Of a stretch of DNA of 64,000 bases, positions 20,405 to 26,349 are shown in pieces (position 1 is the stretch's first letter; each line of letters opens with the position of its first letter). Made by a program: the position numbers and the translations under genes. Location: NCBI RefSeq assembly GCF_036347135.1, contig NZ_CP108938.1, positions 2,914,001-2,978,000 of the forward strand, read 5' to 3'. The notes under the pieces were generated by a model that saw only the letters and a program-made list of their open reading frames with translations, made no database searches and had not been told where the DNA came from. This stretch comes from Streptomyces sp. NBC_00775. GTDB taxonomy: Bacteria; Actinomycetota; Actinomycetes; Streptomycetales; Streptomycetaceae.

Positions 20405-21358
20405 CTACTCCCCGTCGTACGCCTCGATCAGTTCCCGCGACCGCTTCACGTCGTCGGCGATGGCTTCCAGCAGCGCCTCGATGGAGTCGAACTTGGCCAT
20501 GCCGCGGACGTAGGCGAGGAAGTCGACGGCGACGTGCAGGCCGTACAGGTCGAGGCCGACGCGGTCGATGGCGTACGCCTCGACGGTGCGCTCGGTGCCG
20601 TCGAACTGCGGGTTCGTGCCGACGGAGATCGCCGCGGGCATCGCCTCGCCCTCGACGTGCAGCCAGCCGGCGTAGACGCCGTCCGCGGGGATGGCGGTGT
20701 GCGGGAGGGTTTCGACGTTGGCCGTCGGGAAGCCGAGTTCGCGGCCGCGCTGGGCGCCGCGTACGACGATGCCCTCGACACGGTGCGGACGCCCGAGGAT
20801 CTCGCGCGCGCCCTCGACATCGCCCTCGGCGACGAGCCGCCGGGTGAGGGTCGAGGAGAAGGGCTCGCCACCGCCGGCCTCGCCCGACACGTACAGGTCC
20901 ACGACCTCGACGTCGAAGTCGTAGGTCTCGCCCTGCTCACGCAGGAAGGCGACATTGCCCGCGGCCTTGTGGCCGAAGCGGAAGTTGGGGCCCTCGACGA
21001 CGGCCTTGGCGTGCAGCTTGTCGACCAGGACCTTCACGACGAAGTCGGCGGGCGACAGCTTCGAGAACTCGGTGGTGAAGGGGAGGATGAGCAGCGCGTC
21101 CACACCCAGGTCGGCACAGAGCTCGGCGCGGCGGTGGTGCGGGGCGAGCAGCGGAGGGTGGCTGCCGGGGCGCACGACCTCGCTCGGGTGCGGGTCGAAG
21201 GTGACGACCACGGAGGGCACGCCCAGTTCACGGGCGCGGTCCACGGCATGCTTGATGATCAGCTGGTGTCCGCGGTGCACCCCGTCGTAGGAACCGATGG
21301 TGACGACGCTGCGCCCCCAGTCCTCGGGGATGTCCTCCAAGCCACGCCAGCGCTGCAC
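20405..21358 (-). CDS. ribF: Bifunctional riboflavin kinase/FAD synthetase
   Basis: A 317-residue protein that phosphorylates riboflavin to FMN and adenylates it to FAD. The N-terminal nucleotidyltransferase domain has GSYDGVHRGHQLI. The C-terminal flavokinase domain has the PTAN motif in RGRELGFPTANVE and a conserved catalytic glutamate region (VEAYAID). The start is GTG with AAGGAGCGG upstream. Its cofactor products are needed by ThyX, the ApbE system and the acyl-CoA dehydrogenase in this window. It is followed downstream by a terminator hairpin. Confidence 0.96.
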   Translation of the reverse strand: MQRWRGLEDIPEDWGRSVVTIGSYDGVHRGHQLIIKHAVDRARELGVPSVVVTFDPHPSEVVRPGSHPPLLAPHHRRAELCADLGVDALLILPFTTEFSKLSPADFVVKVLVDKLHAKAVVEGPNFRFGHKAAGNVAFLREQGETYDFDVEVVDLYVSGEAGGGEPFSSTLTRRLVAEGDVEGAREILGRPHRVEGIVVRGAQRGRELGFPTANVETLPHTAIPADGVYAGWLHVEGEAMPAAISVGTNPQFDGTERTVEAYAIDRVGLDLYGLHVAVDFLAYVRGMAKFDSIEALLEAIADDVKRSRELIEAYDGE

Positions 21359-21528: not shown

Positions 21529-24500
21529 TCAGGCGGGCACCCGCACCCCGGCCAGGTTCTCGATCATGCGGCGGGTGCTCGGGCCGACCACCGCGGCCCA
21601 CTCCTCGGGCGCGCCGGTCAGCCAGCGGGCCACTAGGGCGGCGAAACCCGGGACTTGACGGGCCAGGTCGACGAGACCGCGGTCGAATCCGGTGGCTCCG
21701 GCCGGGGTGCGGACGAGGAGGAGGCCCGCTCGGTGCACCAGCTCGCGCGTGGCCTCCTCACCCCTGCGGTCCACGCCGGCCGCGGCGGCCTTGAGGAGGG
21801 TGTCGAGGACGACCGGGTCCCGCTCGTGCGCGAGCAGCAGATCCAGCAGCTCGCGCCGCAACTGCCGTGACGCGTGGCTGCCCGGCGCCGCGAGGACCGT
21901 CACGAGCGCCGCCCGCACGGACGCGGGGCAGCCCTCAAGCAGGCCGCTGACCAGCGGAAAGAGCACCGCGCGTGTGGTGGTCCCGTATTCCAGGCGCCGA
22001 TCCACATAGGCGGCCACGTGCGCGGCGGCCTCGGGGCGCAGTTCGACGGCCTCCCTCACCATCGCGGCGACGCTGCGGGCCAGGGCGGGCGTGGTGACGT
22101 CGGCGAGGGTGCGCAACAGCTGGCCCATGTCGGGGCCCGACTGCCGCAGCCGGGTGCGGAAGGCGGCGAGCACCGGGTCCGGGTGGGTGGTGAGCGCGGC
22201 GACCAGGGCGCTCGCGGGCAGCTGGGGGTCACCGGCCGTGAAGCGCTCCAGCGCCCCCGGCAGATACCGGGCGCGGGTGCGCGGATCCCGTACGAGGAGA
22301 CCGAGTGCTCCGCCGTGCAGCGTGCAGTCGGCGGGGCGGGCCAGCAGCGCGAGCGCCGCGTAACGCAGCAGCTCCCGGTCGGCCTCGGTCCGCACGAACG
22401 GCGCGGCCCGCAACCCGTAGGCCACCGCGGCCACCCGCCGCGCCGGCCGCTCGTCGTGCGCCCACCGGTCCACCGCCCGGCACACGGCCGACGGCTCCTC
22501 CTCGGCGAGCACGGCGAGCAACTCGTCGCCGCGCCGGTGCGCACTGGCCACCAGCGCCTCCGCGAGGTCGTCCAGCGCCCGCCGCCGATGCGCGTACAGC
22601 AAGGCCTGCGCGGCGGTCGCCACGGTCGCGTGCGGGGTCGCGGGAAGGGGCCGCTCGTCGTCGAACCACCGCGTGAGATGGGGTTGTACGGCGGCGGGGC
22701 GGGCGGCGAGGAGCCGGGCCACGGCGTCCAGGTAGCGGGGGACGGCGTCGGCGGCCTCGCTTGCCGCGTCCGCCGCGTGCCGTGCCCCGTCCGCGACCAC
22801 CAGACGCCTCAGCAGGTCGAACCGCTCCGTCTCCGGCAGCGGCAGCGCCTCCCAGAAGGGCGGCCCGAACTCCCCCGGTACGGCCCTGCCCCGCTCCCGC
22901 CACCTCACGATCCGCTCGGCGAGCAGCCGCAGCACACCGATGTACGGCGTCGCGTCGGGCACGCGCAGCAGGACGTCCGCGCAGAGGTGGGTGGCCCACC
23001 AGGCGGGGTCACCGAGCGGGCCCGGTGCCTTGGGCAGCAGGTCGTCGAGGGCATGGACCAGGTCCTCCAGACGGAGAGCCAGCTCGGCGGTGCCCTGTTG
23101 ACGGGCCAGGACGAGCAGGGTCTCGACGACGGGTCCGATGCGGTGCCGGGGGACGGGGAGGAGGTGCGCCGGGGAGGATGTGGCGGCGGACCGGGAGCGC
23201 CGGGCCCTTCCCCGCGGCGCCGGAGCCGGCCGCCCCCGGTGGACCAGGGCGTGCAGGGCCGGGTCCAGGTCCAGATGGGAGCCCTGGATCCAGTCGGCGA
23301 GTTCCTCGTGGGCGAAGCGGTAGCCGTTGCCGGCGGGCGCGAGGAGGCCCTCGGTGAGGACGGCGGAGGCCCAGCCGGTGGTACCGGCGAGGCAGTGACC
23401 CGGCGCGGGGCCCCACGGGAAGACGGCTTCGAAGGACGCGCGGTCGAGCTCACCCTGCCCGGGGCCCAGACAGCGTCGCGCGGCCTCGTGCACCTGACCG
23501 GAGACCTGGGCCGCGAGCCGCCGTACGACCGTGCCGCGCAGCCCTCCGGCGGCGGCGAGCCGGACCGCGATGCGCAGGCACATCAGGTCCAGGTACGCGG
23601 CGAAGACCTCGTCGCGGCCGAGCCGCTCGGCCGGGGCGTCCGGCAGCGCGGCCCGCACCTCGGAGAACAGCCGCAGCGTCAGCGGATGCCGTGCGTCGGC
23701 TTCCGCGAGCGCGTCCTCGGGGATCCCGGCGCGGAGCCGGGCCCGCCGGGCCTCCCCCTCGGTCAGATCTCCCAGCCACACGCAGGACGGGATCAACGGG
23801 TCCGATCCGGTCTCGGCCCGGTGCAGCGACTCCCCCGGGAACTCCGCCCCCGCCTGCTCCCAGTGCTCGGCCCGGCATCCGACGACGAGCCGCGCCCCGG
23901 TCTCGCGCAGCCAGGCGGCCGTCCCCTCGGTCCACTCGGGCAACCGGTGGGCGAGGGCGGGCGGCATCTCCTCGGGACCGTCGAGGAGGAGCAGCAGCGG
24001 CCGCCCCGCGTTCCGCGCCAGCCGGGCCAACCGCTCAGGACCGATGTCGCCCAGTTCACCGTCGTACCTGCCGGGAGGCAGCACATCCGCCTCCGCGGAC
24101 ACCCCGGAAGCCTCGCCCGAAGCCTTCCCCGAGGCCGCCACGATGCGCCCCGCCCGCTCCAACGCCCGTGTCGCCGCGTCCGCGACGGAGGTGTCGTCGG
24201 CGAGGAGGTCGGCGCCGCGCAGCCACAGCACGGGGGCCGGTTCCGCGCCCCGGGTGCGGCGGGCGGCGAGGGCCGCCAGTTCCGTCGTACGGCCGCTGCC
24301 GGGTGGGCCGACGAGCCCGAGGACGGCGGCCGGGCCGGTCTCGAAAGCGGTGAACTCCCTGACCACGTCGGCCCGTTCGACCGGTCCGCAGGGCGCGCCG
24401 CCGGACCCCACCGACGTGGCCGCGCCCGGCCCGTCCGAGCCGACCGAGGTCGCGGTGAGCTCCAGTACCCCCGCCAGATTGAGATCGGCTCCGTAGGCGG

Positions 24501-25149
24501 GCACCGTCGCCGCGTTACGGTCCAGCAGCTCGGCGAGCGGCCCCTCGACACCCCGCAGGGGGACGGCGAACCCCGCCGCCCGGTACCCGGTGTGCAGCGC
24601 GGTGCCGAGCACCCCCACCACCGCTCCGGTCGAGGCGTCGAGGACCGGTCCCCCGGCCGCCCCGCCGCCCAGCCGGAGCGCGTCCACGCCCGCTGTGCCG
24701 ATCGCCAGCTCCAGGGCGTCGTCCAGGAGATGGAAGCGGTCGGTCGCCGTGTACGTCACGGCGGACGAGCCGAGCACCCGCGCCTCGCGCCAGCCGCCCG
24801 CGGCGATCCGTACATACGTGCCGGTCGCGACTCGGTCCCGCACGGTGACGGGGAGCGGGTCGAGGCCGAGACCTTCGGTGCGTACGAGAGCCAGGTCGGC
24901 GTCGGGCAGCGGCGTGACGGCATCGGCGCTCACCACGCAGGTGCGGTCGCCGGGGGCGTGCAGGACGAGACAGGCCAGGCCGTCGACCGCCTCGTGGCTG
25001 GTGATCACCGTGCCGTGGTGGTCGGCGACGAAGCCCGTGCCGCGCGGGCGCCCCGCCAGGTCGCAGACGCGTACCAGGGCCTCGTCCCGTGTGTCCCGGG
25101 TATCGTCCGGTGTCTGTCGGCCCCCGGTCCGCGGGCCCCGTCCCGCCAT
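21529..25149 (-). CDS. Trypsin-like / NTPase / helical-repeat protein with substituted active sites
   Basis: A 1,206-residue protein. Residues 35-200 form a trypsin-like fold: His52 in TSHEAV, Asp85 in DADLALVR, but GAAGGP at 163-168 where GxSGGP is expected, so the catalytic serine is Ala165. An NTPase domain from about 275 has GPPGSGRTT (281-289), with Arg287 in place of the P-loop lysine, and a Walker B-like LLLLLDGPEE near 390. The C-terminal half is Leu/Ala/Arg-rich with HEAT/ARM-like helices. Trypsin-STAND fusions are known in multicellular bacteria and linked to conflict or cell-death signalling; this one looks catalytically dead at both sites. The ATG at 25149 has GGGAGG upstream. Confidence 0.85.
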   Translation of the reverse strand: MAGRGPRTGGRQTPDDTRDTRDEALVRVCDLAGRPRGTGFVADHHGTVITSHEAVDGLACLVLHAPGDRTCVVSADAVTPLPDADLALVRTEGLGLDPLPVTVRDRVATGTYVRIAAGGWREARVLGSSAVTYTATDRFHLLDDALELAIGTAGVDALRLGGGAAGGPVLDASTGAVVGVLGTALHTGYRAAGFAVPLRGVEGPLAELLDRNAATVPAYGADLNLAGVLELTATSVGSDGPGAATSVGSGGAPCGPVERADVVREFTAFETGPAAVLGLVGPPGSGRTTELAALAARRTRGAEPAPVLWLRGADLLADDTSVADAATRALERAGRIVAASGKASGEASGVSAEADVLPPGRYDGELGDIGPERLARLARNAGRPLLLLLDGPEEMPPALAHRLPEWTEGTAAWLRETGARLVVGCRAEHWEQAGAEFPGESLHRAETGSDPLIPSCVWLGDLTEGEARRARLRAGIPEDALAEADARHPLTLRLFSEVRAALPDAPAERLGRDEVFAAYLDLMCLRIAVRLAAAGGLRGTVVRRLAAQVSGQVHEAARRCLGPGQGELDRASFEAVFPWGPAPGHCLAGTTGWASAVLTEGLLAPAGNGYRFAHEELADWIQGSHLDLDPALHALVHRGRPAPAPRGRARRSRSAATSSPAHLLPVPRHRIGPVVETLLVLARQQGTAELALRLEDLVHALDDLLPKAPGPLGDPAWWATHLCADVLLRVPDATPYIGVLRLLAERIVRWRERGRAVPGEFGPPFWEALPLPETERFDLLRRLVVADGARHAADAASEAADAVPRYLDAVARLLAARPAAVQPHLTRWFDDERPLPATPHATVATAAQALLYAHRRRALDDLAEALVASAHRRGDELLAVLAEEEPSAVCRAVDRWAHDERPARRVAAVAYGLRAAPFVRTEADRELLRYAALALLARPADCTLHGGALGLLVRDPRTRARYLPGALERFTAGDPQLPASALVAALTTHPDPVLAAFRTRLRQSGPDMGQLLRTLADVTTPALARSVAAMVREAVELRPEAAAHVAAYVDRRLEYGTTTRAVLFPLVSGLLEGCPASVRAALVTVLAAPGSHASRQLRRELLDLLLAHERDPVVLDTLLKAAAAGVDRRGEEATRELVHRAGLLLVRTPAGATGFDRGLVDLARQVPGFAALVARWLTGAPEEWAAVVGPSTRRMIENLAGVRVPA

Positions 25150-25326
25150 GCTCGAACCTCCCCGCCGTGCTCCTGCTTCGACGGTAGGCGCGGGGTGATC
25201 AGCGGGAAAGATCGCGCGGCGAACGCGCCCCCTTCCGCTCCCTCGGTTCACTCCGAGCGCCTGCCCGAAGGGGTGAATAGCCGACGGCGGATGGATACAC
25301 CCTTGTGTGGGGGAACCGAGGGGGGA

Positions 25327-25370
25327 CCGTGGAGCGGCGGGCACGAAACCCCGTGATCGCCGCTCCACGG
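25327..25370 (-). terminator. Hairpin downstream of truB
   Basis: A perfect 13-bp inverted repeat, CCGTGGAGCGGCG (25327-25339) with CGCCGCTCCACGG (25358-25370), and an 18-nt loop. It lies 74 nt beyond the truB stop and is a good candidate for the end of the rimP-nusA-infB-truB transcript. Confidence 0.6.
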
Positions 25371-25443
25371 GCGGGGCCCCGCAGGACCACCGCACCGCCG
25401 TACGCGAGAGACGCGGCGGGAGGACGGAGAACGCCGAAGAACG

Positions 25444-26349
25444 TCAGCCGAACACGGCCAGGCTCTTCGCTTTCCCCTTCTGCTCCTCCACCAGCGCCAG
25501 GAACAATCCCTCGGGGTCGAACACGGCCACGGCGCCCTTGCCCGCGTACACGTCGGGCATCTCCAGGCGTACGCCGTTGAGCAGCAGCCGCGCCCGCTTG
25601 GCGTCCACGTCCCAGCGCGGGAACGCGGCCGCGGCGGCCTCCGCGATCGGCATCACGGTCAGCTCCTCCTGGAGCTGGTCGAGGGTGCGCGCGGAGTCGA
25701 GCTTGTAGGGGCCGACGCGGGTGCGGCGCAGGGCGGTGAGATGACCGCCGACGCCCAGGTCCGCGCCCAGGTCCCGGGCGAGCGCCCGGATGTAGGTGCC
25801 GGAGGAACAGACGACGGAGACGACCAGGTCGAGCACCGGCGTGCCGTCCTCGGCGACGGCGTCACGGATGTCGTACACCGCGAACGACGAGACGGTCACC
25901 GGGCGGGCCGGGATCTCGAACTCCTCGCCCTCGCGCGCCCGCTTGTACGAGCGCACGCCGTCGATCTTGATGGCGCTGACCTTGGACGGCACCTGCATGA
26001 TGCGGCCGGTCAGCTTGGCGATCCCGGCGTCGACGGCGTCCCGCTTGACGCCCGAGGCGTCGGTGGACGAGGTGATGTCACCCTCGGCGTCGTCCGTCAG
26101 GGTGTTCTGCCCCAGCCGGATGGTCCCCAGGTACTCCTTCTCGGTGAGCGCGAGGTGCCCGAGGAGCTTGGTCGCCTTCTCGACGCCGAGGACGAGCACG
26201 CCCGTCGCCATGGGGTCGAGGGTGCCGGCGTGTCCGACGCGGCGGGTCCTGGCGATCCCGCGCATCTTGGCGACCACGTCGTGCGAAGTGAAGCCCGACG
26301 GCTTGTCGACAATGACAAGCCCGTCGGGCGTCTGGTGCTTCTGGGTCAT
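25444..26349 (-). CDS. truB: tRNA pseudouridine-55 synthase
   Basis: A 301-residue enzyme converting U55 in the T-loop of tRNAs to pseudouridine. The catalytic aspartate lies in GHAGTLDPMATGVL near residue 45. The KIDGVRSYKRAREGE and SSGTYIRALARDLG motifs are also present, and a C-terminal PUA-like segment follows. The ATG at 26349 overlaps the rbfA stop (ATGA). Last gene of the translation-factor cluster. Confidence 0.96.
   Translation of the reverse strand: MTQKHQTPDGLVIVDKPSGFTSHDVVAKMRGIARTRRVGHAGTLDPMATGVLVLGVEKATKLLGHLALTEKEYLGTIRLGQNTLTDDAEGDITSSTDASGVKRDAVDAGIAKLTGRIMQVPSKVSAIKIDGVRSYKRAREGEEFEIPARPVTVSSFAVYDIRDAVAEDGTPVLDLVVSVVCSSGTYIRALARDLGADLGVGGHLTALRRTRVGPYKLDSARTLDQLQEELTVMPIAEAAAAAFPRWDVDAKRARLLLNGVRLEMPDVYAGKGAVAVFDPEGLFLALVEEQKGKAKSLAVFG

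Follow-up and report, generated by a model that had tools for sequence, protein, structure and literature searches.

The gene and its product

We analysed a gene lying between truB and ribF in a 64,000-nucleotide stretch of Streptomyces sp. NBC_00775 (contig NZ_CP108938.1, positions 2,914,001 to 2,978,000; hereafter the window). Its product is predicted to combine a trypsin-fold domain, a nucleoside triphosphatase (NTPase) of the NACHT/NLR type with a winged helix, and a C-terminal helical solenoid. Alanine (Ala165) stands at the nucleophile position of the trypsin-fold domain and arginine (Arg287) at the lysine position of the P-loop. A preliminary description of this DNA had treated these as two equivalent dead sites; in an alignment of 341 homologous sequences, however, the protease residues drift, whereas the P-loop arginine is a fixed trait of the family rather than a mark of decay.

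The coding sequence (25149 to 21529, minus strand) has an ATG start and 1,206 codons followed by a stop, and its translation gave His52, Asp85, Ala165 and Arg287 at the positions first reported. The open frame extends upstream of the ATG, to a GTG at 25395; the ATG at 25149 was taken as the start because it is preceded by a ribosome-binding site, GGGGAGG, and because Met1, Arg4 and Arg7 do not vary among 17 aligned sequences. The long frame is real, to judge by its homologues (2,524 among 7,985 scored candidates), its guanine-cytosine (GC) content by codon position (82/57/91%) and its ratio of nonsynonymous to synonymous substitution rates (dN/dS; NG86, five pairs). The latter was 0.18-0.36 for the trypsin domain, 0.27-0.33 for the NTPase and 0.22-0.31 for the repeats, compared with 0.07-0.24 for truB and ribF. 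The gene is therefore constrained, though more loosely than its neighbours. Opposite the gene, the plus strand carries an antisense open frame (21874-25356; 1,160 codons); such frames are usual in high-GC genomes.

A confident structure model contains the trypsin-fold barrel, the NTPase, the winged helix and the helical solenoid, so that all three features proposed earlier (trypsin fold, P-loop, C-terminal helical repeats) are predicted. In the numbering of the model (residue number minus 7), the barrel spans 18-190, the P-loop follows strand 269-273 and leads into helix 280-292, Walker B closes strand 379-383, and the winged helix and helices 661-1193 come after it. The chymotrypsin fold of the barrel is indicated by Pfam Trypsin_2 (residues 37-180, 37.4 bits against a cut-off of 27.6) and by structural matches of the model to HtrA/Deg1 and to the pseudoprotease MamO; just ~24 variable, mostly low-confidence residues precede it. 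The modelled NTPase and winged helix match NLRs over ~300 residues, with animal NLRs rated the best matches and Avs4 ranking below them, and the nucleotide-binding domain-helical-winged-helix fold of NLRs is present in the model.

The nucleotide site and the protease site

The main alignment of 341 sequences comprised 241 from two protein searches and 80 + 20 from loci, some species being repeated. A set of 20 relatives from other genera, 18 of them readable at the sites, was also compared. Arg287 was invariant in both (341/341 and 18/18), as were all three P-loop glycines, Asp390 and Glu393. In NACHT/NLR proteins of the STAND class, Walker A reads GxxxxGK[ST], and Walker B has a small residue after the aspartate, then acidic residues. 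The family departs from the former by its arginine in every sequence of both sets and agrees with the latter, Walker B reading DGPEE in this protein. A lysine supplied from elsewhere, which the preliminary description had named as evidence against a lost P-loop lysine, was not found: all columns of residues 245-640 that are filled in more than half of the sequences contain at most 23% lysine.

The P-loop lysine is among the best-conserved residues known. Among sampled genes of the same genome, 19 of 20 GxxGxG[KR][ST] motifs carry lysine, the sole arginine being that of the present protein, and plain GC drift at the P-loop was rejected on this ground. The codon of Arg287 varies; CGT is used in 68 of 80 loci, against 8% of all arginines in these genes. 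This is the most anomalous codon choice among 542 conserved sites (the next of the 71 arginine sites reaches 24%), an anomaly that is inflated by shared descent. Codons 288 (ACG) and 290 (GAA) rank 12 and 8 in codon anomaly and form a small cluster with 287.

The two substitutions have different histories, the lost nucleophile being one state of a drifting site. Position 165 is occupied by Ala in 259 of the 341 sequences, Val in 20, Ile in 19, Thr and Ser in 18 each, Cys in 2, and Gly and Arg in 1 each, with 3 gaps. Position 85 is Asp in 154, Gly in 154, Asn in 19 and Ala in 12, with 2 gaps, and position 52 is His in 332. The remark of the preliminary description that His52 and Asp85 are kept holds for this protein, where only the serine of the His-Asp-Ser triad is missing, but Asp85 is not conserved in the family. 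In the 18 readable relatives from other genera, positions 52/85/165 read HGA (5), HGS (5), HDS (4) and HGP, RGP, LNA and YGA (1 each). The protease site varies freely, and the nucleophile is missing from this protein, as first described.

A midpoint-rooted tree of 32 tips places the four HDS relatives on two distinct branches, which suggested an ancestral protease with many losses. A trypsin fold must at some time have possessed a triad. Parsimony, however, reconstructed the midpoint root as Gly85 and Ala165 in both trees (329 and 32 tips), so that intact triads would be regained; the serine codons at position 165 are of both kinds (AGC 2, TCC 1). Midpoint roots are weak evidence on the ancestral triad, retention and regain are inseparable, and the scheme of many losses was dropped. 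Trypsin or serine-protease names are given to most named entries among the 120 homologues listed of 2,524; for members without the triad, the annotations "trypsin-like peptidase" and "serine protease" are probably misleading.

Locus, upstream leader and distribution

The gene was found in 31 of 61 genomes (31/37 of the same genus, 0/24 of the others). In a second sample of 51 same-family genomes, the family presumably being Streptomycetaceae, 35 were matched; two matches (G061 and G088) are weak and lie in or near the trypsin region alone, leaving 33 genomes in 9 of 17 genera. All organism-named entries among the 120 listed homologues are Streptomyces, the closest being from S. lutosisoli (98% identity).

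The preliminary description had found the gene oddly placed in the ribF-truB block; this position proved common to several genera. truB or ribF adjoins the gene in 30/30 loci of the 61-genome survey, own genome included. In the 80 named-genome loci (the best 80 of 501 relatives), truB lies upstream and ribF downstream in 78, the contigs of the other two being too short; among 20 relatives belonging to eight other genera, truB is on the expected side every time and ribF in 19 cases. The gene is single-copy in its own genome. Since tblastn (E 1e-5) gave no match in 72,556 plasmid and 50,697 phage records, a mobile element was rejected.

Six of the 37 same-genus genomes have no copy. In five, truB and ribF are 181-636 bases apart; in the sixth, G032, no ribF match was obtained. 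The same distance is 230 and 125 bases in two outgroups and 863-1,533 bases in three more. One of the five, G028, still has between truB and ribF a remnant of the leader that precedes the gene elsewhere (L170, 3863-4210), aligning locally with two relatives at scores of 68 and 72 (best of 200 shuffles, 26 and 27) and with the leader of the window at just 33 (shuffles up to 32). This scar makes at least one absence a deletion; no leader remnant was found in the other four. A first reading of the tree as gain within Streptomyces was dropped because family-level relatives share the locus, which makes losses the more likely cause of the absences. A single open frame holds the match at 122 of 130 loci, while at eight the match is split (G013 and G027 of the same genus; G062, G086, G096, G101, G104 and G109 of other genera); three of the split stretches contain N, and some splits may be assembly faults. 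The locus is old, and the protein is best explained as vertically inherited in Streptomyces and in adjacent genera of the same family.

About 200 bases upstream of the gene are strongly conserved in 75 sequences (the window and 74 loci, within L031-L110). This leader holds a 12-base-pair stem, with conserved blocks around GGCGCTCGGAGTGAA and TGATCA, and its fold has a z of -2.4. A known RNA was rejected, the Rfam matches being at chance level, and no consensus promoter or terminator was found.

Table 1. Positions of the gene, its domains and sites, and its neighbours in the window
Feature	Position	Strand	Basis
Coding sequence, 1,206 aa: trypsin-fold domain, NACHT/NLR-type NTPase with winged helix, helical solenoid	21529..25149	minus	frame, homologues, model
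Trypsin-fold (pseudoprotease) domain, residues ~25-215	24505..25077	minus	Pfam Trypsin_2; model matches HtrA/Deg1, MamO
His52, catalytic His position	24994..24996	minus	His in 332/341
Asp85, catalytic Asp position	24895..24897	minus	Asp in 154/341
Ala165 (GCC, motif GAAGGP), catalytic Ser position	24655..24657	minus	Ser in 18/341
Predicted NACHT/NLR-type NTPase with winged helix, residues ~252-640	23230..24396	minus	structure models and structural matches
P-loop GPPGSGRTT, residues 281-289	24283..24309	minus	Arg287 (CGT, 24289-24291), invariant
Walker B LLLLLDGPEEM, residues 385-395	23965..23997	minus	Asp390, Glu393 in 341/341
Predicted C-terminal helical solenoid, residues ~665-1206	21532..23157	minus	structure model
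Conserved upstream leader with stem-loop (~25328-25369) and ribosome-binding site GGGGAGG	25150..25375	minus	75-sequence comparison
ribF, downstream neighbour	20405..21358	minus	
truB, upstream neighbour	25444..26349	minus	

Interpretation and known systems

We favour, at a probability of roughly 0.5, a nucleotide-gated, NLR-like scaffold or sensor, vertically inherited, with a non-catalytic trypsin-fold domain. The C-terminal solenoid would bind a partner or signal; the NACHT module, acting as a conformational or oligomerisation switch, would bind ATP or ADP through its arginine P-loop with little hydrolysis; and the N-terminal domain, not a protease here, may serve as a peptide- or protein-binding output. 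The observations of the preliminary description are confirmed and its interpretation partly supported: a sensor or scaffold role is rated the likeliest reading, but the two sites are not equivalent. In a family with a fixed P-loop arginine in which the other tested nucleotide-site residues are kept, whether an NLR switch can run on arginine is directly testable. An NLR-like protein has here settled at a single core-chromosome locus, and its protease sites, in many states, offer a natural series for the transition from protease to binding domain.

Several points weigh against this reading. Foldseek ranked archaeal ATPases and Cdc6/Orc1 highest for the NTPase part, with NLRP3 fourth. No Pfam NTPase model exceeded its cut-off in any of the eight proteins scanned, namely this one and seven diverse members, and two of the seven fell under the Trypsin_2 cut-off as well; Pfam NACHT (PF05729) was listed for one of the eight (13.3 bits against a cut-off of 26.7, E 0.075) and unlisted for the other seven. 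Complete triads occur in 4/341 sequences and in 4/18 of the other-genus relatives, so that protease loss is not the defining state of the family. A structural role could likewise fix the arginine. Known NLR-like NTPases usually require the P-loop lysine; in LypB, a Walker A K230A variant failed to complement (PMC13236601).

A tentative alternative, compatible with the nucleotide-gated scaffold, is that the family was purged of lysine, that of the P-loop included, perhaps to evade Pup tagging. The protein has 3 lysines (342, 707 and 1120) against 131 arginines; the 341 members have a median of 2 (range 0-8), and 20 distant relatives have 0-10. Lysine as a fraction of lysine plus arginine, K/(K+R), has a median of 0.012 in the family, compared with 0.205-0.208 in a gene sample of the same genome, 0.20 in RibF and 0.35 in TruB. 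A crude frame-based gene caller gave 449 putative genes over 864,000 bases of this genome; among them the present protein has the lowest K/(K+R) of 24 genes of at least 800 codons and of 101 genes of at least 500 codons. A second lysine-poor frame in the window (538 codons, K/(K+R) 0.013, below the present protein) lies opposite transporter genes, disappeared under a stricter gene caller and was discarded. Lysine deserts are reportedly frequent in actinobacteria that possess pupylation, making up 35.4% of the analysed S. coelicolor sequences (PMC10665810). They are, however, common in such proteomes and may reflect GC pressure, and a different long, lysine-poor protein encoded in this genome (6 Lys, 123 Arg) retains its P-loop lysine. 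The family would allow a direct test of whether an active site is within reach of selection against lysine.

It is rather doubtful that neither domain catalyses or binds nucleotide and that the protein is a scaffold in which the arginine is structural, e.g. in a salt bridge to Walker B. A lysine-to-arginine change usually impairs the use of NTP by a P-loop and the catalytic serine is absent here, both of which fit such a scaffold, but the three glycines and the two acidic residues of Walker B, invariant in 341 + 18 sequences, exceed the need of a structural arginine. A combined scheme, in which an NLR-type switch would run on an old, invariant arginine P-loop, the whole protein would be purged of lysine to evade Pup-proteasome tagging, and the trypsin-fold output, freed from catalysis, would now be a binder, seems unlikely as a whole.

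We consider it quite improbable that the protein is, like bacterial NLRs, an active system for phage defence or cell death whose effector would be the trypsin-fold domain or a partner. Its architecture resembles bacterial NLR defence proteins, its model matches NLRs and, lower, Avs4, and trypsin-NLR links are described in PMC7159879 and PMC13236601. Against this, it is a single-copy gene at one locus without plasmid or phage match, and PADLOC gave a single match, OloA, which is weak (E 0.0054) and partial, covering residues 858-1107, in the repeats only. No paper on this family was found among the entries listed in literature searches that cover a minority of subscription papers; SCO5710, the locus tag provisionally taken for this gene, likewise gave no result.

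A decaying gene, or the system losing function of the preliminary description, is very improbable: truB beside ribF in five genomes, one scarred, and the eight split loci would fit it, but the dN/dS values, the invariant residues and the single frame at most loci led us to reject decay of this copy.

Compared with known systems, the protein shares with NACHT/NLR proteins (NLRP3, NLRC4, NOD2; bNACHT, Avs) the predicted NTPase-winged-helix fold, the small residue after the Walker B Asp and C-terminal repeats; it differs in its P-loop arginine, trypsin-fold N-terminus, helical solenoid, and chromosomal, vertical inheritance. LypABC (CARD-NLR, Caulobacter) also joins a trypsin domain to a divergent ATPase, one without conserved Walker residues yet thought to bind ATP; LypA, however, requires its serine and the system has three genes with a CARD (PMC13236601), in contrast to one gene beside truB and ribF. 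Neither a CARD before the trypsin domain nor a partner NLR gene was found, the immediate neighbours being truB and ribF. MamO shares a trypsin fold that has no working nucleophile but retains a non-catalytic function; it differs in being a magnetosome factor without NTPase (PMC4794232). The iSTAND MoxR-vWA systems have an inactive STAND and at times a trypsin-like N-terminus, and are reportedly almost wholly absent from actinobacteria (PMC7159879); no MoxR or vWA gene is an immediate neighbour of the present gene, truB and ribF being there in 78/80 loci.

Pfam Trypsin_2 matched 26 places in the same genome, the present gene included, and nine stretches (ten other frames), chosen mostly by long open frame, were inspected. 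Four of the ten frames have a P-loop, with lysine in 4/4, and serine occurs in 3/3 where the nucleophile is visible. L179 and L180 are trypsin-nSTAND1-WD40 proteins, L183 is trypsin-NACHT and L184 trypsin-nSTAND5-KAP. Like the present protein, they have a trypsin domain followed by a P-loop NTPase, but they carry the P-loop lysine and, in the three where it is visible, the serine, have ordinary lysine contents (K/(K+R) 0.13-0.19), and show no homology to it that exceeds the threshold in either the NTPase or the repeats. With a single gene copy and no such homology, there is no evidence for the earlier suggestion of a regulator paired with an active homologue. L179 (~6.89 Mb) and L180 (~0.05 Mb), both with serine and P-loop lysine, resemble each other. 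Additionally, L182 (~3.53 Mb) encodes a lysine-poor (4 of 762) trypsin-VMAP-C protein, which suggests a conflict system of the MoxR-vWA type.

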